Shown here: piece by piece, positions 16,087-60,517 of the stretch
How positions within the stretch are numbered: the first letter of the stretch is position 1
Layout of the letters: the number at the start of each line of letters is the position of its first letter
Source: Stachybotrys elegans
Lineage: Eukaryota > Ascomycota > Sordariomycetes > Hypocreales > Stachybotryaceae
Reading direction: 5' to 3'
DNA length: 64,000 bases
NCBI GenBank assembly: GCA_020746835.1
Contig: JAGPNK010000013.1
Span: 1,302,001-1,366,000 of the forward strand
Translations under genes and position numbers: made by a program
Notes under the pieces: model-generated
What the model saw: only the letters and a program-made list of their open reading frames with translations
The model's database searches: none
Told to the model about the DNA's origin: nothing

Positions 16087-18288
16087 TCAAGCCCAGATAT
16101 TTCTGCTATACTCGCTCGGCCATGCAAGCACATAACGCTCCTCCTTGATCTTGTCAATATGAAACAACACATGGCTCATCTCTAGCGCCTCAACAACGGC
16201 ACCCTTGTTTGCCTCTGCTGGGACGCATGGTTGCTGCTCCTGGGCTGCCCAGCAAAATGGTGCATCTAAGTGGGTATCTCGTTCTCGAAGCCAAACATCA
16301 AAGGGGTGTGGGTTGAACATGAGCTTCTCGTGAAGTTGACCGTCCCTGCATATCCGAACATTCCTATGCTGAGCGAAAATGTGTGATCTGATGTCCGCGG
16401 CGCGGGGTGAGATAGCAATGTTATCTTCGTCGTTGCCCCGTTCCCCAGTCGGGCTTTCATATCGCACGACGCTGAGTCCCCCATCCTTGAGAACCGCCTC
16501 CTGGATCCATAACAGTCCAGAGAGCTGCTCGGTATTTCCCAGAATATACGGCCACAGTTCGGGGCTCGTGGGGTCACTTCCGTAATGGATTTCATCGATG
16601 CAAGAATCCTTTTCCCAAGCGTCCTTGTCTTTAAACCCAAAGGTGCTGTAGTCGGCGATCCATTTGGCCGTTTTGCTGTCAATGATTTGGGTCAGGGGGA
16701 TGTCGGGCATTGAGAAAACGCTGCGGCCATAGAATCCGCCCCGGTTCCGGCGTTTGGCGGCTTTCCAGACCAGTTCCCCCAACGCCAGCTCTCCCTTTGA
16801 TACCAGCGTAGTCAACAGATGTTCAAAGAATACGCTTTCTGACGTGGAAACCCTATCCTCATCCACACTACTCGTGTCGTCTGCGTTGCACGTGTCGTCT
16901 GCATCAACCGCGTACTTTGCTTGTAGCTCGGCGAGTTCGAGGAATCTATCAATGCGGAACAGCCAGCCAGTAGTTGATAGACCAGCCTCCGTGATTTCCA
17001 TACGCGTTTCTTTTATGCAGCCCGTGCATCGAATATCGGATAAGACTGTGGCTCCTGAAGGAGCCCACATCATTCTCTTGGCCTTTTCGGGGTTGTGGCA
17101 TTCCGGGTCTTGACAAAAGAAGGTTGCCTCTCCGGTGGAAATGGCAAGAGCCCAGATACAAGCGCTGTAGCTTAACCCGAGACGCTCGATCTCGCGAGTG
17201 TTGATGGTGAGACTTCCACTGCAGCAATTCGTTACCAATGCTACCTTGTCAGCAACAAAGGTGCACTTTTGACCCCGAAGTATGCGCATTGCTTGGCCGC
17301 AGTTATAAAGACTTTTTGTGTAGAAGCTTCTGGTTCGTACTACCACAGCCTCCGAAGGTATCTCGCACGATACTTCGAAGACATTGTGTGATGTTTGAAG
17401 TCGGTTCAATATGTCTTCGGGTCTATTGCTCTGCAATCTCTCGCAGAGGCGTCGCTTAAACGTTTGAATGCGGGAAGGAAAGATTGGAATTTCGCGGTAT
17501 GGGTTCTCATCAGTCCAGGGCGTACGCATGATCCAAAGCTCCTCGTCATCATAGCCCCATGGGGAACAGAGCCGTTCTTGCGTAATCCACGCCCTCTGGA
17601 AGAAGGCGTTGCTTGATAAGATGTCGAGGAAATCGGACAGCTGGATAGCCAGCTGAGCAACCTCATCGAGTGACCAATCATCAAAATCTGCTGATTCAAT
17701 ATGGGGCTCAATACACCTCGCAAACCTATCCTCGATATCCAGGTCAACCAAGAAGAGCGCCCTTCCCATCTTGTATATGCTGTTCATGTTCTGCACAGCC
17801 AGCTCTTTTTCCACGTCGTCATATTGGTTGATGCATTCTTGATCGATCCAGAGCAAATGCAAGTATGTGTACGTTGCGGCATGGTGCACAGCCCTGCGAA
17901 GAATCTTGCTTGGGGCTCTTGATGGCCGCACTGTACCATCAACATCTCTAATGAGAACTGGGGCGAAGTTTGAGTCGGAAGTCTGCTGCCAAGTGTATGA
18001 TACCGGCAGGCATCCAATTCGGTCCGAGTCACCTCGGAAGTCGAAGAGTTCGCCCTGAACCAAAGTGAGGATCAAGCTTGGGTCTGTCGCATCTTGGTCC
18101 TCGAAATGACGAAGCTCATCTGGATGGACAGGCGTTTGCGGATGTTGTTGACGAGTGACGGCTAGGAAACGTGGCGTGGGTCTCTTTGGTTTCGACTGGA
18201 TCAAGCTGGAGATATCGATTAACTGTTGCTTGAGGTCTCGAGGGCTCGCAAACGAGTCACGAAAGCATCGTTGGTCGTCCTCGTTCAT
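16087..18288 (-). CDS. HET-domain (heterokaryon incompatibility) protein
   Basis: Single-exon gene for 733 residues. The HET domain lies at about residues 90-240: LPVSYTWQQ near its start, LLWIDQECINQYDDVEKELAVQ, MNSIYKMGRALFLVDLD, and AFFQRAWITQERL. These are the conserved blocks of the domain that triggers cell death when incompatible fungal strains fuse. The C-terminal 450 residues are not recognisable. They include a Cys-containing stretch (CQDPECHNPEK ... RCTGC) that could bind zinc. No signal peptide or membrane helix is seen. Its 3' end lies 88 bases from that of the receptor gene, with convergent orientation. Many HET genes exist per genome and most have no proven role in incompatibility. 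Confidence 0.87.
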   Translation of the reverse strand: MNEDDQRCFRDSFASPRDLKQQLIDISSLIQSKPKRPTPRFLAVTRQQHPQTPVHPDELRHFEDQDATDPSLILTLVQGELFDFRGDSDRIGCLPVSYTWQQTSDSNFAPVLIRDVDGTVRPSRAPSKILRRAVHHAATYTYLHLLWIDQECINQYDDVEKELAVQNMNSIYKMGRALFLVDLDIEDRFARCIEPHIESADFDDWSLDEVAQLAIQLSDFLDILSSNAFFQRAWITQERLCSPWGYDDEELWIMRTPWTDENPYREIPIFPSRIQTFKRRLCERLQSNRPEDILNRLQTSHNVFEVSCEIPSEAVVVRTRSFYTKSLYNCGQAMRILRGQKCTFVADKVALVTNCCSGSLTINTREIERLGLSYSACIWALAISTGEATFFCQDPECHNPEKAKRMMWAPSGATVLSDIRCTGCIKETRMEITEAGLSTTGWLFRIDRFLELAELQAKYAVDADDTCNADDTSSVDEDRVSTSESVFFEHLLTTLVSKGELALGELVWKAAKRRNRGGFYGRSVFSMPDIPLTQIIDSKTAKWIADYSTFGFKDKDAWEKDSCIDEIHYGSDPTSPELWPYILGNTEQLSGLLWIQEAVLKDGGLSVVRYESPTGERGNDEDNIAISPRAADIRSHIFAQHRNVRICRDGQLHEKLMFNPHPFDVWLRERDTHLDAPFCWAAQEQQPCVPAEANKGAVVEALEMSHVLFHIDKIKEERYVLAWPSEYSRNIWA

Positions 18289-21241
18289 GCTGACAGATTG
18301 CCTGCGCCTACTGCAGCTGAATCAGAAAGCTTGTGTTATGGGCTGGTATCAAATGCAGAGTCTGTATGAGTACCAGACTAGTCAGGCAACCGGTAGCTAG
18401 TAGGAGAGGTTATTATGAGGGTTTGGCTATATTTTTCTTGGCAGCAATGGCAGTGTGGGAATCTCGTTGCTCAAAGTCAGAAGACAGGGCTCCAACGCAG
18501 GTGGACGTGAGCCCCCTATTTGTACATTTGTGCGGCCCCACATTCTACTGGTTCTCTGGCTCCTTGCGGCTCAAGGAATGGAGCTGCCCAGCTTACGACT
18601 ACAGACTGTGCCGATAAGCCTTAGAACCCCCACCTAACCACCACAGCCCCCTCACGTAGAAGACTTGGTTTCCCTTGTTATGTTAGAGAACGTACGAGAG
18701 TACCTACTTCGACCATGTGCAAGCAGTTACGAAGGCCTATATACCCTTTGGGTTGACGGGGCCTTGAGCTTCGAACGTAGTTTCCCTTTCTGTATCCAGA
18801 CCAAAGAACGAGTGGAGCTGATCAGATGGCTGACTAGCGGATTGATATATGCTATTGTCGACAAATGCCAGCAATAGAAACCGGCCTACCATGTTGCATA
18901 GATCCCGAGGTGGTGAGTATAGCCTCGTCAATCTGCCCGCTTACATCTGGAAACTGCTCTACCGACGCATTGGTGCCCTCTACAATTCGCCTTGATACCC
19001 TAATTCTATGGGTATCTTCATCGAATGCGCTATTTTCTTGTGTCTTGCTCTCATTTTGTTACCTAGATATGAAAAGACTTTTTTCTTCTATTCCAAGGCA
19101 CATATAATCTGACTCCTGCGTTATTTGTACAGTTTCTCAGCACCCCTGGAGTAGCCATGCCATCCCTGGTAGCCCCCTACCTCTCCGCGGACATCTATAC
19201 TCAACATTCTCTATCTGGGGTGCCCATCGAGCTCCTTGACTAAATAAAATATCTATGGGCTTGTATGGCCAATCAGTGGACGGAGAAGAGACCGAACGGG
19301 GCTGAGTTTAACAGGTTGAGGAGAACTTCAAGGTTGGCGGAATACATGATGACTCTACTTGTGCTGAGAGCTGCATCCTATGTAACCACGAAGACAATTG
19401 CAAGCTTTCTTCCCCCATCTTTGAATAACGCTCACACTGTTTCACAAATCTTTCAACTTAGTTATACAATTTCTTGCTTTGCTTCCTCTCTGGGCTCTTC
19501 GATCATCACCAGTTGTATATGAGAGACATATTTGATCATTACCTCCTCTCGTGTGCTAGTGTATGGGTCATGTTCCTTGCAGAGATGGATTAATGAAGGC
19601 GTATGACACATCTTTCAACAAGGTGGTCCAGTCGGGAACAGATTTTCAACAATTCCACTATTCATTTGATGAAACATTGAGCTTGGGTCAATGCCATCTG
19701 TTCAAGCTCATATCTCCAATCTTGAAGTAATGATTCAAGAACATGATTGATGTCGAACTCAGGCACACGGAAGGCGGCATGACTTTTCGAATGTTATATT
19801 TCGCAGTGAAATCACCAATCCTGTAAAGGTGAACTTGCTGTCAGCGCACGCGACTCAGGAACGTGCTAGCACTTGATAGATGTGGCGGCAGCCACTCCTT
19901 AGTCCGCAGGCGTACTCTCTCTCAAAGATGCTCCACGCACTGGCAGACTTCGGAAATCGACCCTCCGCATAAACTCTAATGAGAAGAGACAAGTGGAAGG
20001 AGATTCGGTATCTGCTTTTGCTACAACAAGAAGAGGAGGACGCAATAAGTCCTTATGTGGGATTTGGCAGATATCAATCTCATTTGCCATACGAGTATGC
20101 TTCTATCCCCTCAGCTATGTGACCACCAGCTCGTATCTCGGCGCGGTCTTCCACCTTTTTCCTCTGATCCCCACCGAGCTAGAGAATCCACTGCCTTTAC
20201 CACAGCCACCAGTCCTCGTGCACCAGGTGCGTCTACACGGACATGCCCTGAATCATTAGCAGGCCCGTTTTGGAACTCCATATATTCAGCTACTCGATGG
20301 AGAATCTCTCAAATGTGCAGTGCAATGATAGGCGATTTGCATACTCTTCGTCCTCGCCAGCCCACCAGACCCTTAGCCGCCGAGATGCAAATTTCCTGTC
20401 TGGAGTGTGATATGACCTCCCTAGAAAGATACGACGATCACTGCTGATGATTTGTTTTTGCTTTAATGCTGAGGTGGCACAATTTGCTGGTTATCTTGTT
20501 GTTGGTTCCCTGGGCTGACACTTCGGGCGTTCTAGTTGACATGTGTTGCAAGGACCTGATCACCAATGCCCCCAGCAACTTCTGCCGCAACATGATCCCC
20601 TACCAGGCCCTCATTCAACAACCAGACAGTGCACGTATACAATGGAATTGAATCTACACACTTATTCTGGTAAGCCTCCACCATGATGTATGGTGCTGCC
20701 ATGAGAACCTGTGCTCCACTCCCTCTTCTCTCTTTGACTCGGTCTGACTGCATCCGGCTCAACTGACCATGCTGGAATCAATAGCGCCATGCCTTCATCT
20801 TGAAGATAAGCTTAAGCGACTCTGGTCATTGTTTTTGTAGGCCTAGACAAGTAGTGGATGCGTACCAAAAATCTGATTTGCGGATTCTTACCTTCCGAAG
20901 GCCCGATGGAACCAGCCGGATCATCATGTCCCTTTCAAACCTGCAGGTAGCCCCGCCACATATCCGACTATCTGAAATACTAACCGGAAGAGAAGCAGTT
21001 GGACTCGGTTGGTGGTTGCTGAAATCCCTGCTTCGGGGCCGAAAAGGATATCATCGAGTCACACGGGCTCGCCGCCAAGGCGTGCGAAACCAGTTTAGTC
21101 CATCCCAACCGGGTCTTCATGACTTGTGGTTAGTCTGAGCATGAGTGAACAAATCTATAAAAGGGGATGCTCCATCACCTCCGAGCTGGAAACTTGAAAG
21201 GCAGCCCAGTTGCCCTTGACCCATTTCCACCCGACAATAAC
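18289..21241. other. Intergenic, 2.95 kb
   Basis: Between the HET gene and the AA9 gene only short reading frames occur, without motifs or convincing splice sites. A TATA-like element (CTATAAAAGGGG, about 21155-21166) lies some 80 bases before the AA9 start and is the likely core promoter of that gene. The rest holds nothing I can name. Confidence 0.45.
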
Positions 21242-33146: not shown

Positions 33147-34462
33147 CCTGATAATTGCTACGGCTTCCGCGGGAGTCGAAGGTGAAGAAGGAGGGGGGAA
33201 ACGTGGTTGGAGGTGCGATGGCCATATATTATACCTGCTCATTCGCACACTCGCTGAGATTACGTCGACGACGATTCTGCCCCCGCATGCCACGCAGTGA
33301 AATGAATCAACCCAGCAAGGGAAATGCGTGCGGGCGGGGTTCTTGCGTGGGCTTACGGAACACGATGCGGGGGCAGAGAGAAACAAACATGGTCGCTGCT
33401 TGCTCACCTGCCTAAACCAGCATGATGTCGGCGAGCGGAATCCAGGCTCACAAACGGCCCTTCAGGGGTGGAGGTCCTGGAGTGAAGAAAAAGACCCTAA
33501 ATGGGATGATGATGATGACACAGATGGTGGTATGCTATTAGCCTTCCATGGTGTGCTTTCAAGGGATTGGTTCGCTTATGTCGCCTTCCACGTACGGCAG
33601 CTTGACGACCAGGTTCGTGCCGATATTTCCTCGATCCTCGCTACCTACTAATCTCCGCAAGCCGGCTCTTTTTCTTACTCGTCTTGAAGAGCGCCAGAAG
33701 GGTATATGCAGCGGATGCGACGGGTTGCTGCCGGAAGGCCACTAATAAGCTGGATTGACAGGTCGGCAAGCGAGGGGCGCAGATATCCTTGTGCAGGTCT
33801 GGAACGTTCCTATCGTCGGCGGCGATAACCACTCGCTCGGCGGCCTCCTGCGACGCATGTCCGAGATTGAGACGTACCCTGGAGCGGCAATGACGCGGCC
33901 GACACCATCAAGCACGCGACTGAACTGCAGCACAACCTTGGCCAGAATAGCATCTTACTCCTCCAACAATTCCCAAAGAGCCATCGCTCCCTCACTGCCA
34001 CGATTCATTACGGAACTGATAATGGGGTCCCCGGAGCAGGGCCGCAGCCACCGGGCCAAGCGTTGGCTTTTTACCCTATCCCGGTCCGGTAGCAGTGACG
34101 GCCGGCGGACCTTGGGGATCGGACCTGTCCAGCATATCGCGTATCTCGTCCCAGCCCGGAGCAGGCAACCACCGAGAAGTGCGGGGTTGCTGGCATTGCT
34201 GTGCCGCAATGATTGGCTATAGAGCTGAGGCATTCCACTCATATTCGAGTATAAATGCGAGCTCTTCTCCCGCCCTCGTGCTTTTGTACCGCGTGTCTTT
34301 CATTCTCGGTCCCACATCTTCCCATTTCCACTGCCTCATCTCATGTCAACCAGGGCAGTGTCAACGATATCCTAGCGGAGCCAAGGAGAGTGTTGGTTTA
34401 ATCTTCGTCCCCCCACGCATCCAACTGCGCAACATCTCCAGTGCCTTCTAGAATTTCCGACT
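33147..34462. promoter_or_regulatory. Divergent spacer, 1.3 kb, with a possible TATA box
   Basis: This separates the secreted peptidase (minus) from the H3-tail protein gene (plus). GAGTATAAATGCGAG at about 34245-34259 resembles a TATA box, followed by a C/T-rich leader and the plus-strand start at 34463. The part from 33750 to 34240 has long open stretches on both strands but no recognisable protein. Confidence 0.4.
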
Positions 34463-35323
34463 ATGGCTCGAGCGAAGCAAACCGCGCGGAAAAGTACGGG
34501 TGGGCGAGCACCTAGGACTCAGCTTGCCGGCGACACTAGCCACAGGAGACCACCGATACCCATACCAGAACGCAATTGCCTAGGAGACATACCAGAGCAC
34601 AATTACCTAGAAGAGGCTCGACAGCTTGCAGGCTGGCGGCAACGCGCAACGGAGCTCAATGATCAGAATTCGCCTCCCAACCCGGACAATTGCCTTTTTC
34701 ACATCTACATTGAAGCTATGAGGTCCTCAAACGTCGTTGTATTATTCTGTAAACCTGATATATGCGTCCATTTTAGTGGCCACATATACAGATTAAACCA
34801 ACAAGACTTTGATGGCTTTGTCACTCTCGCCCATGCTGCTTTATCAGATCGCAAGATACGAAGGCCCTCCAGAATCCTTGCATTTACCTGTCGATCCAAT
34901 GTTGTCCTGAAAGTAATCACGGGCGCGTGGACCAGCTTCACGGGTCGCACATATCCAGAATTCTCCGAGGCGCGGTGTACGAACTTTGGACCGTACCCAC
35001 CCGAGACCTTTGCGTCTCCCTCTACCGATCCAGAGTCTTCAGAAAATGGGCCGGGGCCAAAGATGCACGCCCTGACTGCGCTTCTGTCCTTGGCCTACGT
35101 TGGCGTCGAGGGCGACCCCGAGGAGGTAGAGTTTAGCTCGGACATACAAAGCGGGCCAATTTCTCAGATCGCGACAATGTATGAGAATGCCGTCTTTGCT
35201 CGTCTTGCGGAAGACTTTGCGGAAATGGAAGACGCACGCACACAACAGGAAGTTAGTGCACAAGTACGGTCAGAGCTCCAGGCATCTTTACAACGTCAAC
35301 CAGGAGCAAGTGTGAAGAGGTAA
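34463..35323 (+). CDS. Unknown protein with a histone H3 tail-like N-terminus
   Basis: Intronless frame for 286 residues. After the initiator Met the protein reads ARAKQTARKSTGG then RAPRTQLA. This equals the histone H3 tail over residues 1-21 except T3A, K14R and K18T. K4, R8, K9, S10, T11 and R17, the main modification sites, are kept. The similarity ends at residue 21: there is no histone fold, so this is not an H3 variant. Next come two 9-residue tandem units (IPERNCLGD, IPEHNYLEE). A folded-looking domain of unknown family follows at about residues 85-165 (VVVLFCKPDICVHFSGHIYRLNQQDFDGF..., so one strand-rich block). An acidic helix-forming C-terminus (MYENAVFARLAEDFAEMEDARTQQEV) closes it. 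Codons of the tail (CGA, GCG, CAA, AAA, AGT, GGG) are not those of a highly expressed histone gene, arguing against recent copying. A role in engaging H3 writers or readers is only inference. Confidence 0.75.
   Translation: MARAKQTARKSTGGRAPRTQLAGDTSHRRPPIPIPERNCLGDIPEHNYLEEARQLAGWRQRATELNDQNSPPNPDNCLFHIYIEAMRSSNVVVLFCKPDICVHFSGHIYRLNQQDFDGFVTLAHAALSDRKIRRPSRILAFTCRSNVVLKVITGAWTSFTGRTYPEFSEARCTNFGPYPPETFASPSTDPESSENGPGPKMHALTALLSLAYVGVEGDPEEVEFSSDIQSGPISQIATMYENAVFARLAEDFAEMEDARTQQEVSAQVRSELQASLQRQPGASVKR
34549..34614 (+). repeat. 27 bp tandem duplication inside the H3-tail gene
   Basis: Two adjacent 27-base units, each beginning ATACCAGA and continuing with CAATT.CCTAG, encode IPERNCLGD and IPEHNYLEE. 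They sit just after the H3-like tail and form a short spacer. They differ at a few bases, so the duplication is not very recent. Confidence 0.7.
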
Positions 35324-35439: not shown

Positions 35440-37239
35440 TTATAAATATTCATGGGCGACCGTCTGGTCTTTCCTCTCCCTGCTCTGTGATCTCCTTGAT
35501 TCTTCTGGACCATTCGTCACAATCAGGCTGAGCTCGGTATCTTCACTCCGTGAATGATTGTCCTTGTCGTGCAGCGGCTCGTCTGCATCAGGTTGACGCT
35601 GGGTGGCAATGACATCCGTGAAACCCTGCCAGGTGCCGTGCCTCTTTTTACCCGATCCCTCTGAAGACTTGCTTTGTTGGGAATCTTTGTGGACGTAATG
35701 CTTGGGAACGTCGCTTGAATTGGAACCTCGGAGTCTCGACCGAAAACGCCGAAACATGAGCGAGAGAGCTGGCATGCAAGAGCAGATGATTGCGAGATTG
35801 AGCTCTAGCTGTGTCCAGAATATGAAGTAAGAAAATTCCCCTATCACTATGTGTTAGAATGGCTCTTCATTTCGTGTTATATGCATGCAAATAAATATCG
35901 GTAAACTTACTTGTGGAGTTGTAGGCAGAGTAGGTTTGGATGAATAATACAGTTCTGATGATGCTGCAGGCGGTGACGAAGAGACCTGTTGCAAAGATGC
36001 AGCAGATGGCTATCCTTTTCTTAAGGGTCATCTGTAATTTGAGCCTGTGGATGGATAAATATTAGCAGTAGCTCTGTACACGGTTGAGGAGGGATACTGA
36101 CACCTGAGGTATAGGCATGAGAAAGATGGCCAAGTCCAGAATAGCCGATGCGATGAAAGAAAACATGATATGTAAATAAATGTTACCACATTTTCCAACG
36201 GTTTCCAGTTCTGGGTTCCAATTCGTCCAGAAATAACTTGCAGGGCGGCAAAGAGTGGCTGTCGAGATGGTGAAGGCAACATAGTAGATGGCGACTAGTA
36301 TCAAAACCGCATAACATTGCCGTCTGAACTGATCAACGGGAAATATTCGAAGATACAGACACAGCACCATGACTTTCGAAGACGCGGCGCCTCCTGTGAA
36401 GAAGAATTCTGAAATATAGAAGAGCTGTGATGGATGCGATTAGCCATTGTCGAACACGGCAAACCACGAACAATATTCGATGACTTACTCTCCATCCCTC
36501 GGTTAATTGAGCTATTGGCAGACTCCACACGTCCTTGCCCAACATTTGATGAATTGCCAACTCAAGGAGGACCTGCTGACCGAGATCGACGCCAAGGGTG
36601 AGCAGCATGGTAAGGTCATCCCAGCCTGTACCAGTTGTCACAAAGTACGACCGCATACGACTTATGATGCGGAGAAGTCCCGCCAGGCAGGCCAAAGCAA
36701 ACAGAGTCCAAGTGCTTCTTGCAAGCCACGGACCTTCGTCAGGGTTGTGGATGCCACAATTCGCCATGGATGCATTGAGGGCTTGCAATTGCTCGGGTAC
36801 CGAACAGTTTTCGACAATACACGGCTGTATGTTGGGCCGCAATTCATCTTGATGGGCGCAGAGGCAGGGAACATCGACGACACTGCAACCGACTGCCGCA
36901 GCACCTTGAACAAAGCACAGCGTCTGACATGCAGTTAGCCATGAACTCGCCCCTCATTAGAAAGTAAATAGCAACAGAGGATGATGGAAGACAGGCGAGC
37001 AGTCGTGGTATGAAGAGGATAATGGTTCTTACCGCGCATAGTGGCACTGGTGCTGGAATCAGAGACGGGCCATTATTGGGAGGAGTAGATGGACTGTCAT
37101 GATGGGGAGAGGTGGATGAATTGCCAGGACTGGGAGCAGTGGAGTTGCTAGGAGGAGTGGAGATCAAGTGAGGAACGGCAGCAGCCATGCATGTGGAACT
37201 CCAAGCCACGAGGGCGAGAAGTTTGGGCCACCGTACCAT
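35440..37239 (-). CDS. Pth11-type G-protein-coupled receptor with CFEM domain
   Basis: Cell-surface receptor-like protein. The start at 37239 gives a signal peptide (MVRWPKLLALVAWSSTCMAAA), then a Ser/Pro/Thr-rich stalk. The CFEM domain has all eight cysteines after splicing near 36935-37033: LCATLCFVQGAAAVGC, then DVPCLC, QPCIVENC and ANC. An Asp precedes the PCLC pair, as in haem-binding CFEM domains. Seven hydrophobic helices of the rhodopsin-like (Pth11) family follow: WTLFALACLAGLLRII, GWDDLTMLLTLGVDLG, SSKVMVLCLYLRIF, AVLILVAIYYVAFTIS, and IMFSFIASAILDLAIFLMPIP. A long charged cytosolic tail (SRSEDTELS..., RRSQSRERKD) ends at 35440. Several introns lie at about 35830-35910, 36050-36105 and 36420-36490. 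The family senses host surfaces in some plant pathogens; the ligand here is unknown. Confidence 0.87.
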
Positions 37240-57079: not shown

Positions 57080-57706
57080 GGTGGTGAGAGAGGCGTTGGG
57101 ATAGATGGGGTAGAGGCGTCCTTCTGGGATGGAAATGAGCGACCGTTATATCGAGAGCTCGATGACACAGTCTCGGAAGCCCAGACCTTGACCAGCTCGG
57201 AACAGCTGAGAGGCAACGCGAGGGTTCCGAGCATGGACAATCCGGGGCCCCACGTTATGGCTCTTCTGACCCCTCAGCGGCACTGTTGAGGCGAGGGACA
57301 GAAGCGTAAACGGTGATGCCGGAAAGATCATTTCTGTGAACTTGAATGGGTCTCGACGCGCGGAGAAGAAGACTAGGCACTGGAGGTGGGCCAGAAAGGG
57401 GGTGAAGGGGGTGAGGTGATTCTAATTAGCCTCCTCCGCAAGGGGTCCCCATGGGGCAGTTTGGAGGCCCTCTGGGGTGGTTCTCAGGTATCCACAGAGT
57501 TGACGAGGAAACCCGAGGCTCGGATGTGAAGTCGAGCAATATTCCCCGCAGCAAGTCGACTGCTGAACCGACTCGGATGGCTGATCCGAAGAAATTGTTA
57601 CCCCGGATCTCTACTCCTTCTCGTCAGTGCTAGTCACGACGTTCTCCTCTCTCTGCTGCACCACAACCTCGCGTGGCCGACCATTGTAGTATCGGAGCTG
57701 GCCAAC
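57080..57706. promoter_or_regulatory. Shared divergent promoter with an 8 bp inverted repeat
   Basis: 627 bases between the transporter (minus) and rhamnosidase (plus) starts. It contains CTCGGAAC at 57196-57203 and its exact reverse complement GTTCCGAG at 57224-57231, separated by 20 bases. A CGG-N9-CCG pair lies near 57577-57591. CGG-based dyads are the usual binding sites of Zn2Cys6 regulators, two of which are in this window. Function is not shown. Confidence 0.45.
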
Positions 57707-60517
57707 ATGCACTCACCCACCATCTCAAGACCTGTCTTTGAGCACCATCATAGCGGGCTCGGAATTGGCTCATCGCGGCCCAGGATTTCCTGGCAGTTCG
57801 GCGCCCTTCCCGAGACAATATACGACTGGAGGCAAACCAGTTACGAAGTCGAGGTCACCTTCAGTTCAGCTCCCGACAACGTCTTACTTTTCCATGTCAC
57901 AAGCGACAGGTCAGTGCTCGTCCCGTGGCCATCTCGGCCATTGACATCCGGAGAGGGCGCATTTGTTCGAGTCCGTGTTACTGGCACATACAAGCTGTCC
58001 ATTAATGGCGACTCGACGACTGTGGTGGGAACTGGAGAGTTCTCACCATGGTCTCCATCCGCTATGGTAGAAGCCGGGCTTCTTCAGTCATCGGACTTAC
58101 AGGCACGCTTCATCACCTCTGCAGACAACATTGGCCCGCGAGGTCCGCTTCGACCGATCCGATTTCGTAAAGACTTCTCCTTACCACCACAATTCGGTGG
58201 TCAAGGATCCTACCGTGCTCGACTTTACATCACTGCCCTCGGTGTATACGAGGCCTTCATCAACGGCCAGAGAGTAGGCGATGAGTATATGGCTCCTGGA
58301 TGGACCAGTTACAAGCATCGCCTTGCCTACCGAGCGCACGACGCGACGCATCTGCTTGATCCTCGGAGGCCAAACGTGCTGGCTATTGAGGCCGCCGAAG
58401 GCTGGTGGGCTGGCCGTCTTGGCTTCAATGGCGGACAGCGATTCAGATACGGAGACCGCATCGGCGTCTGGGCACAACTCGAAATCACCGACAACTCGTC
58501 CCAGCGGTGGTGCCTTGGCACGGATGAGTCGTGGGTGTGTGGCCCAAGCCCGATATTGACCAGCGAGATCTACGATGGCGAAGTCTACGACGCAAGAGAG
58601 GAAGACAAGGGATGGAATACAATAGGGGAATTGCCCAGACTCAATGCCCCTGTAAAAATTCATCCATGGCCGTCTGCCAATTTGTTCTCTCCAGATATGG
58701 CGCCCGTGCGTGTCACCGAGGTGCTGCCTTGTATCAAAGTCTTCCAAAGCGCCAGTGGTAAAGTCATTCTTGACTTTGGTCAGAATCTGGTCGGCGTGCT
58801 TCGCGTCAAGTCCATGACAGTCATGCACGGCGAAGAAGTGGTCTTCACCCACGCCGAGGTCATGGAGCACGGCGAGCTTGGCACACGGCCGCTCAAGTTG
58901 GCCAAAGCGCGGGACATTGTCATCGGTAGTGGGAAAACTCTGACGTCCTGGACACCGAAGTTCACATTCCACGGCTTCCGATATGTACAGATAGATGGGT
59001 GGCCCGGGCAAGGCCTGCCTGCCCCTGAGGAGTTTGAAGCACTGGTGATGCACACAGACATGGCGAGGCGGGGGTTCTTTGAGTGCTCAAATCAGAGCGT
59101 CAACCAGCTGCACCGCAACATCGTCTGGTCTATGCGTGGCAACTTCTTATCGCTGCCCACCGACTGCCCTCAGCGGGACGAGCGCCTTGGCTGGACCGGA
59201 GACGCTCAGGTCTTTGCACCCACAGCAACCTTTCTCTATGACACGATGGGGATTCTCGGTAGCTGGCTCGAAGATCTAGCAGCCGAGCAGCTTGCGGAAG
59301 GCCAGGGCGGGATTCCACCTGTGGTTGTTCCTTTTGCACTAGGCCCTAACTTTCGTTCCAATATGCCCCAGGCCGCCTGGGCCGACGCGGCTGTGCTCAT
59401 GCCAGATGTTCTGCACCGGTACAGCGATGACGAAGCCCTGCTCGAGCGACAGTTTGAGAGCATGCAGGTCTGGCTCGAGCAGGGCGTGGCCAGGGCCCCT
59501 GATGGACTCTGGGACCCAAATCAGTGGCAGTTTGGCGACTGGCTTGATCCCAGCGCACCTCCGGAAGATCCTGTCAACGGCCGGACAGACCCCGTGTATG
59601 TGGCAAATGCCTACCTGGTGCACTCGACAAACGTCTTTGCGCGGATATGTCGTTCTCTTGGCAAGCATAAGCTAGCTGAGCATCACGAGGCGCGTGCGAC
59701 CAAGCTCCTCGAGCTCTTCCAAAACCGTTACGTGACCCCTGACGGCAACCTCATGTCATCGACTCAGACAGCACTGGCTCTTGCAATCGCCTTTGATCTG
59801 TATCCTCGCCAACACTCCCAGCGCCAGACCGCTGCTGCCGCGCTGGACCGCCTCGTGCGCACCGCCAGATTCAACATTGCCACCGGCTTCGCAGGGACGC
59901 CCGTCATTACTGCAGCGCTGACAGCTGCGGGGATGTCGCAGCTCGCATACCGCATGCTGCTCGAGACGCGATGCCCGAGCTGGCTGTACCCCATCACAAT
60001 GGGCGCAACGACCGTCTGGGAACGCTGGGACAGCATGAGGGCCGACGGCTCCATCAACCCGGGCCACATGACGAGCTTCAACCACTACGCGCTGGGTGCT
60101 GTGGCGGACTGGCTGCATTCGACCGTGGGTGGGCTCGCGCCTGCGGAGCCGGGATGGCGGGTGATTCGGGTCCGACCGGTGCCAGGCGGAAACATTACGA
60201 GTGCGAGCGTGCGGTTTCATGGACCGTATGGTGCTGTGGCGTGTCGTTGGGAGTTGGAGGGGAATGTCTTCTCAATGAAGATCACTGTCCCGCCGAACTG
60301 CACCGCTCTAGTCACATTACCCTGCGATATTAGCTCACCATTCCTGGCTGTGACGGACAATAGTGCAATCACGAATGGGAATCATGGAAGAGAGAGAATA
60401 CGTGAAGTGGGCTCTGGCTTACACAGCTTCACCTGTGAGTTTGACGCTGGGGAATGGCCGCCCAAGCCATTTACGCCCCCTTTTCTGCCAGCACCACCAG
60501 TGACGATTGCTGAATGA
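57707..60517 (+). CDS. GH78 alpha-L-rhamnosidase
   Basis: Intronless frame of 936 residues. N-terminal beta-sandwich domains include RISWQFGALPETIYDWRQTS and YITALGVYEAFINGQRVGD (the rhamnosidase N domain). The (alpha/alpha)6 catalytic domain carries the family hallmark DCPQRDERLGWTGDAQVFAPT, whose Asp/Glu residues include the acid. It is followed by WLEDLAAEQLAEGQGGIPPVV and TTVWERWDSM...SFNHYALGAVADWL near the C-terminal beta domain. There is no signal peptide, so the protein may be intracellular and act on imported rhamnosides, consistent with the divergent transporter. Alpha-L-rhamnosyl bonds occur in pectin, flavonoids and saponins. The length is normal for the family. Confidence 0.93.
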   Translation: MHSPTISRPVFEHHHSGLGIGSSRPRISWQFGALPETIYDWRQTSYEVEVTFSSAPDNVLLFHVTSDRSVLVPWPSRPLTSGEGAFVRVRVTGTYKLSINGDSTTVVGTGEFSPWSPSAMVEAGLLQSSDLQARFITSADNIGPRGPLRPIRFRKDFSLPPQFGGQGSYRARLYITALGVYEAFINGQRVGDEYMAPGWTSYKHRLAYRAHDATHLLDPRRPNVLAIEAAEGWWAGRLGFNGGQRFRYGDRIGVWAQLEITDNSSQRWCLGTDESWVCGPSPILTSEIYDGEVYDAREEDKGWNTIGELPRLNAPVKIHPWPSANLFSPDMAPVRVTEVLPCIKVFQSASGKVILDFGQNLVGVLRVKSMTVMHGEEVVFTHAEVMEHGELGTRPLKLAKARDIVIGSGKTLTSWTPKFTFHGFRYVQIDGWPGQGLPAPEEFEALVMHTDMARRGFFECSNQSVNQLHRNIVWSMRGNFLSLPTDCPQRDERLGWTGDAQVFAPTATFLYDTMGILGSWLEDLAAEQLAEGQGGIPPVVVPFALGPNFRSNMPQAAWADAAVLMPDVLHRYSDDEALLERQFESMQVWLEQGVARAPDGLWDPNQWQFGDWLDPSAPPEDPVNGRTDPVYVANAYLVHSTNVFARICRSLGKHKLAEHHEARATKLLELFQNRYVTPDGNLMSSTQTALALAIAFDLYPRQHSQRQTAAAALDRLVRTARFNIATGFAGTPVITAALTAAGMSQLAYRMLLETRCPSWLYPITMGATTVWERWDSMRADGSINPGHMTSFNHYALGAVADWLHSTVGGLAPAEPGWRVIRVRPVPGGNITSASVRFHGPYGAVACRWELEGNVFSMKITVPPNCTALVTLPCDISSPFLAVTDNSAITNGNHGRERIREVGSGLHSFTCEFDAGEWPPKPFTPPFLPAPPVTIAE

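Follow-up and report, generated by a model that had tools for sequence, protein, structure and literature searches.

Is the H3-like N-terminus of a protein with no histone fold a chance or recent resemblance, or is it an old histone tail kept by selection, and what could it be kept for? This question is raised by an open reading frame of Stachybotrys elegans, located in a stretch of 64,000 nucleotides (hereafter the window; positions 1302001-1366000 of contig C5, JAGPNK010000013.1) of a 43.4-Mb genome assembled in 61 contigs. A sequence-only reading had described the product as a mimic of the H3 tail, acting as a decoy or substrate for chromatin enzymes in the same cell or after export. As a whole, the comparisons below establish, at the level of sequence, an old H3 tail that has been selectively maintained on an otherwise unrelated protein, and the signs of selection make a real, conserved H3-tail mimic very probable.

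The open reading frame and its H3-like N-terminus

The gene (34463..35323, + strand) is a single-exon, uninterrupted open reading frame of 286 aa, which starts with ATG and whose product aligns almost end to end with eight relatives. Its stop-to-stop frame runs from 34376 and has no in-frame ATG, GTG or TTG before 34463; a TATAAA sequence, by its motif a possible TATA box, lies 213 bases upstream of the ATG (34250..34255, +). The protein begins with MARAKQTARKSTGGRAPRTQLAG. By codon and alignment comparison, its residues 2-22 (34466..34528, +) correspond to H3 1-21 with 18 of 21 residues identical, the only differences being T3A, K14R and K18T. Within this segment, the TARKSTGG core round K9 (H3 T6-G13; 34481..34504, +) is invariant in the alignment of all nine family members, the window protein included. 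The match ends after A21 and is followed by a variable linker (residues 23-43; 34529..34591, +), predicted to be disordered. As for the rest of the protein, the conserved body (residues 46-212; 34598..35098, +) is predicted to form a small alpha/beta domain, one loop of which is of low confidence, and a long C-terminal helix, partly of low confidence, is predicted for residues 233-278 (35159..35296, +). A 27-bp imperfect tandem duplication (34561..34614, +; 23 of 27 positions matching) accounts for a nine-residue insert relative to all eight relatives; through it the conserved PEHNYLEE segment is repeated, in the window protein only among the nine members.

No Pfam match was obtained for the window protein at E<=10, hence no PF00125 histone fold after the tail, and no NCBIfam match at E<=1; PF00125 was also absent among the weak Pfam matches of the nine members. 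The PDB matches listed, 60 out of 130, are chains and peptides of histone H3 or resembling it, and all align inside residues 1-31. The sequence-only reading, which had given the same three substitutions and an abrupt end without a histone fold, is thus borne out on both points. A genome search found no second copy of the body in S. elegans. Concerning its fold, a likeness to Mago nashi, of the exon junction complex, is proposed as a weak lead; at the level of sequence profiles, hhalign gave a probability of 0.2% against a small three-row Mago alignment, and PF02792 was absent among the nine members at E<=10.

A CFEM/fungal-rhodopsin gene (35443-36953, -) adjoins the mimic gene, and the window also holds a HET-domain frame (16090-18321, -) and an alpha-L-rhamnosidase gene (57530-60514, +). 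No link was found between the mimic and these three neighbours, whose HET, CFEM and fungal-rhodopsin domains are those of a filamentous ascomycete.

A chance match was rejected, since about 1e-11 such matches are expected in 43.4 Mb under a simple model with a 6% match probability per residue. A degenerate DNA pattern of the N-terminus has two sites in the genome, H3 itself and the mimic frame, and a genome search with the H3 sequence gave eight matches: two pieces each of the canonical H3 on C3 and of the divergent H3-like loci on C8 and C7, the mimic gene and one segment on C12. A recent copy of H3 was also rejected. Only 7 of the 18 shared residues have the same codon as in the canonical H3 gene of the species, where 5 would be expected from independent choice by the frame's own usage, and synonymous sites are saturated (pS 0.79 per site, dN 0.17), so that the amino acids were retained, or arrived at, during a thorough change of the DNA. 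GC3 is 0.51 in the mimic frame vs. 0.70 in H3 exon 1. The earlier remarks on codon use unlike that of histones, and on an old fusion or selection in place of a recent copy, agree with these figures.

Conservation of the tail among Sordariomycetes

Two protein searches of 5.8 billion proteins provided eight full-length relatives among the matches listed: P0002 of Trichoderma asperelloides, P0004 of T. chlorosporum, P0007 of a Nemania sp., P0010 of Sarocladium strictum, and P0003, P0005, P0006 and P0008. Trichoderma and Sarocladium belong to the Hypocreales and Nemania to the Xylariales, all being Sordariomycetes. One search scored 7972 candidates with 2645 matches, of which 120 are listed: nine rows of the family, one of them that of the window protein itself, and 111 proteins with histone domains. 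When non-histone proteins carrying the tail were sought, the 120 matches listed out of 4673 comprised six family members and 114 proteins with histone Pfam domains. Relatives of the body lacking the tail, which the sequence-only reading had named as a sign of a chance or local artefact, were not seen among the matches listed: the tail is present in all eight full-length relatives, and seven of the eight gene models begin at the same Met. P0004 is annotated with five residues ahead of the tail, a point against the reading favoured below. As for viral contigs, a scan by two patterns, both derived from the tail alone, gave no confirmed relative.

Identity of the relatives to the window protein ranges from 37 to 56% over the body (79/216 to 125/224 positions), while 16 to 18 of the 21 tail residues are identical; compared with H3 1-21, the nine tails keep 18 to 21 residues, that of P0010 having zero changes. 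Among the nine proteins, invariant columns number 16/21 in the tail, 3/21 in the linker and 42/243 in the body (tail vs. body, Fisher p = 4e-8, in a test treating columns as independent, which alignment columns are not), and no 21-column stretch beginning at residue 31 or later has more than 11. Tests on four relatives each show a tail identity above that predicted from the body rate, with binomial p values of 0.002 (P0002), 0.002 (P0007), 1e-5 (P0008) and 5e-6 (P0010). Five of the nine members are close relatives, at 79-90% identity to P0002, so the independent evidence is smaller than nine.

Two origins of the tail that involve no present role in the cell can be weighed directly against these figures. 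An H3-derived segment fused to another gene would look the same at birth, and could persist as a relic of an H3 exon without function; this is difficult to reconcile with 16 of 21 invariant tail columns on bodies that have diverged to the identities given above, and with saturated synonymous sites relative to the species' own H3. Similarly, the protein could act as an exported imitation of another organism's H3, as the sequence-only reading had envisaged, but a strongly hydrophobic stretch is absent from the first 40 residues of all nine proteins, the best 10-residue mean hydropathy being 0.82 (a test of hydropathy only). Export of the mimic thus appears unlikely from the sequences, unconventional secretion being a possible route, and relic and export taken together are very improbable. 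The mimic is a non-histone fungal protein, conserved and probably not secreted.

Constrained residues and the candidate role of the tail

Sixteen tail residues are invariant in all nine members, namely A1, R2, Q5, T6, A7, R8, K9, S10, T11, G12, G13, A15, P16, R17, L20 and A21. The variable positions agree with H3 in 8/9 members for T3, 8/9 for K4, 7/9 for K14, 5/9 for K18 and 3/9 for Q19; T3A is found in the window protein, K4R in P0005, and K14 is replaced by R or M in two members. Both K4 and K9 had been put forward earlier as the key residues. The emphasis on K9 holds, since the constraint centres on Q5-G13, the longest invariant run, together with A1, R2, A15-R17, L20 and A21; that on K4 does not hold equally, this residue being R in one of the nine.

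These positions were compared with the needs of DIM-5, the H3K9 methyltransferase of Neurospora. According to PMC3248561, DIM-5 requires R8-G12 in vitro, whereas K4, K14 and K18 are dispensable, and a K14R tail is still a substrate; in Neurospora itself, K14R impairs DNA methylation semi-dominantly. Table 2 of that paper gives R2, A7-G13, K14, P16 and R17 as the residues within 1-21 that affect DNA methylation in vivo, and gives A15 as dispensable, while A1, Q5, T6, L20 and A21 do not figure in that table. The source is not uniform: A7 and G13 are added by Table 2, but in vitro A7M was without significant effect and the effect of G13M was slight. In the family, R8-G12 as well as A7 and G13 are invariant in 9/9 members, and so are all the Table 2 residues within 1-21 except K14; the K14R change of the window protein is covered by the in vitro tolerance of DIM-5, but the R or M at position 14 of two members counts against a role in the H3K9 pathway in view of the in vivo effect of K14R. 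A1, Q5, T6, A15, L20 and A21 are invariant too, and the K9 pathway by itself therefore accounts for only part of the constraint. The fit to the residue needs of DIM-5 is good but not complete, and the invariance of A1-R2 could point to a reader of the N-terminus.

The favoured reading, to which we assign a probability of roughly 0.45, is that of an endogenous H3-tail mimic serving as substrate or ligand of the H3K9 pathway. Once Met is removed, a near-authentic H3 tail would be presented on a disordered linker, followed by the predicted small alpha/beta domain and long helix, and the tail would be kept through its engagement by H3-tail enzymes and readers, most probably those of the H3K9 branch. 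A DIM-5-type methyltransferase may methylate K9 of the mimic, which HP1 would then read, with phosphorylation of S10 or T11 as a possible switch. The body would in this way serve the heterochromatin machinery of the same cell as a regulated client or adaptor outside chromatin. Concerning the partners, the S. elegans genome holds one Pre-SET match that adjoins a SET domain, one chromo-shadow match and two DNA-methylase loci, so that the partners needed are probably encoded, as candidates by domain content; a chromodomain was not found in the open frame next to the chromo-shadow match (a single frame was searched, with introns unresolved).

The constraint on 16 of 21 residues also fits a decoy or inhibitor, in which the free tail would compete with chromatin for H3K9 or H3K4 enzymes and readers and lower heterochromatin or other marks at particular times. 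Altered H3 tails are semi-dominant in Neurospora, as if poisoning the DNA methylation machinery, and K14R, the change of the window protein itself, is among them (PMC3248561). Such a change at position 14 is, however, confined to two of nine members, and titrating abundant enzymes or readers needs high expression, of which codon use (GC3) gives no sign. The latter point also tips the balance slightly towards an adaptor and away from bulk titration, and the decoy is considered unlikely. Less likely still, the tail could owe its conservation to a PHD-type reader, an H3K4 enzyme, a deacetylase or some other tail-binder, and not to DIM-5 and HP1. A1 and R2 are invariant in 9/9 members and T3 and K4 are kept in 8/9, and PAF15 offers a precedent for an H3-like N-terminus readable by a PHD finger (PMC12704277); against this, the window protein has T3A and P0005 has K4R, and the longest invariant run is Q5-G13.

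The H3 tail is also an importin cargo signal, and could simply bring the body into the nucleus. According to PMC5677370, H3 1-28 is a nuclear localisation signal for Kap123 that depends chiefly on K14 and K23 and tolerates K14R. Eight of the nine members have K or R at position 14, and a classical monopartite basic motif, sought by a simple pattern, is absent from all nine proteins. But position 23 is never K among the nine, and the strictest constraint falls on R8-G13, residues not singled out by the Kap123 signal; from the sequences, nuclear import fits poorly as the reason for the tail and is regarded as improbable.

The favoured reading, of a client or adaptor of the H3K9 pathway, can be extended to a bolder proposal, on which we would place rather low odds: that Sordariomycetes have a protein family dedicated to providing soluble 'free H3 tails', which are genuine clients of DIM-5 and HP1 and tune the cell's own heterochromatin or DNA methylation, and that this family is one of several independent H3-tail mimics. 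Heterochromatin, DNA methylation and silent genes might then have a new regulator in a group to which Trichoderma belongs. A family that keeps the H3 N-terminus of 21 residues but has no histone fold would also be a natural probe of the tail residues that fungal chromatin enzymes read outside nucleosomes, and whether a natural non-nucleosomal H3 tail regulates DIM-5 and HP1 is now a testable question.

Known mimics and other H3-like sequences

Histone mimicry is already known. The 21-residue N-terminal architecture and its conservation in a family were not encountered in searches of open-licence PMC papers, whose listed titles and opening lines of abstracts name no fungal protein built in this way. 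The non-histone H3 mimics compared (PMC9768651, PMC10611923 and PMC12704277) are short motifs or brief N-terminal resemblances. PAF15, the vertebrate PCNA-associated factor, is a non-histone whose own N-terminus is H3-like (VRTK vs. ARTK) and is read by the PHD finger of UHRF1 (PMC12704277). Its Pfam profile PF15715 weakly matches five of the nine members (best E 0.0095) and does not match the window protein. The family differs from PAF15 in being fungal, in a tail matching H3 at 18-21 of 21 residues with the K9 core included, and in lacking the PIP box Q..[ILMV]..[FYWH][FYWH] in 9/9 members. G9a and GLP bear an H3K9-like automethylation site that is methylated, then read by HP1 and switched by phosphorylation of the next residue (PMC9768651), by analogy the same logic as that proposed for the mimic. 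There, however, the sites lie inside the methyltransferases themselves, whereas the mimic would present its putative site in an N-terminal tail of 21 residues, on a protein without any recognised domain. As for the partners of EHMT and CBX, an H3K9-like linear motif has been proposed to make non-histones clients of the writers and readers of H3K9 (PMC10611923); these are motif-level candidates in human cells, while the fungal match is much longer, N-terminal and conserved in a family.

The single segment found on C12, KAPRRQLASKAARKSVPST, agrees with H3 14-32, the K27 region, at 17 of 19 residues, and occupies residues 480-498 of a 1020-aa open frame (L023:979-4038, +, in C12:263500-270500). 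Compared with the species' own H3 gene, 5 of 19 codons are the same and the synonymous difference is 0.83 (saturated). Its profile scores are modest, with E 0.012 in the H3 search and 0.027 at best in another. The frame itself weakly matches an RNA-dependent DNA polymerase (E 0.098), has no significant Pfam match and may be a fungal cellular reverse transcriptase. From its sequence, the segment is possibly a second, independent H3-tail mimic. Another protein, P0009 (223 aa), carries TARK[ST]TGG four times (residues 7, 64, 121 and 205), three of them after RTKQ or RAKQ; it is similar to the mimic family in the tail only and has no Pfam match at E<=1. Such repeated H3K9-like sites on one unrelated chain speak in favour of the H3K9 reading. 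Imitation of the H3 tail may, on these sequences, be a wider fungal habit, and if the bolder proposal holds, the reverse transcriptase-like frame with its internal copy of H3 14-32 and P0009 would stand beside the 'free H3 tail' family as independent mimics.

The remaining H3-like matches of the genome fall on two loci. The divergent locus on C7 (L024, C7:389300-390500) has the sequence MNRTKQTARGSAGGKAPRKKL, in which G stands in place of K9, and is followed by a histone-like piece in a different frame. On C8, an H3-family locus (L025, C8:807800-808900) combines a basic N-terminus, unlike the H3 tail, with a histone fold split into two pieces, and from its sequence is perhaps the centromeric H3.
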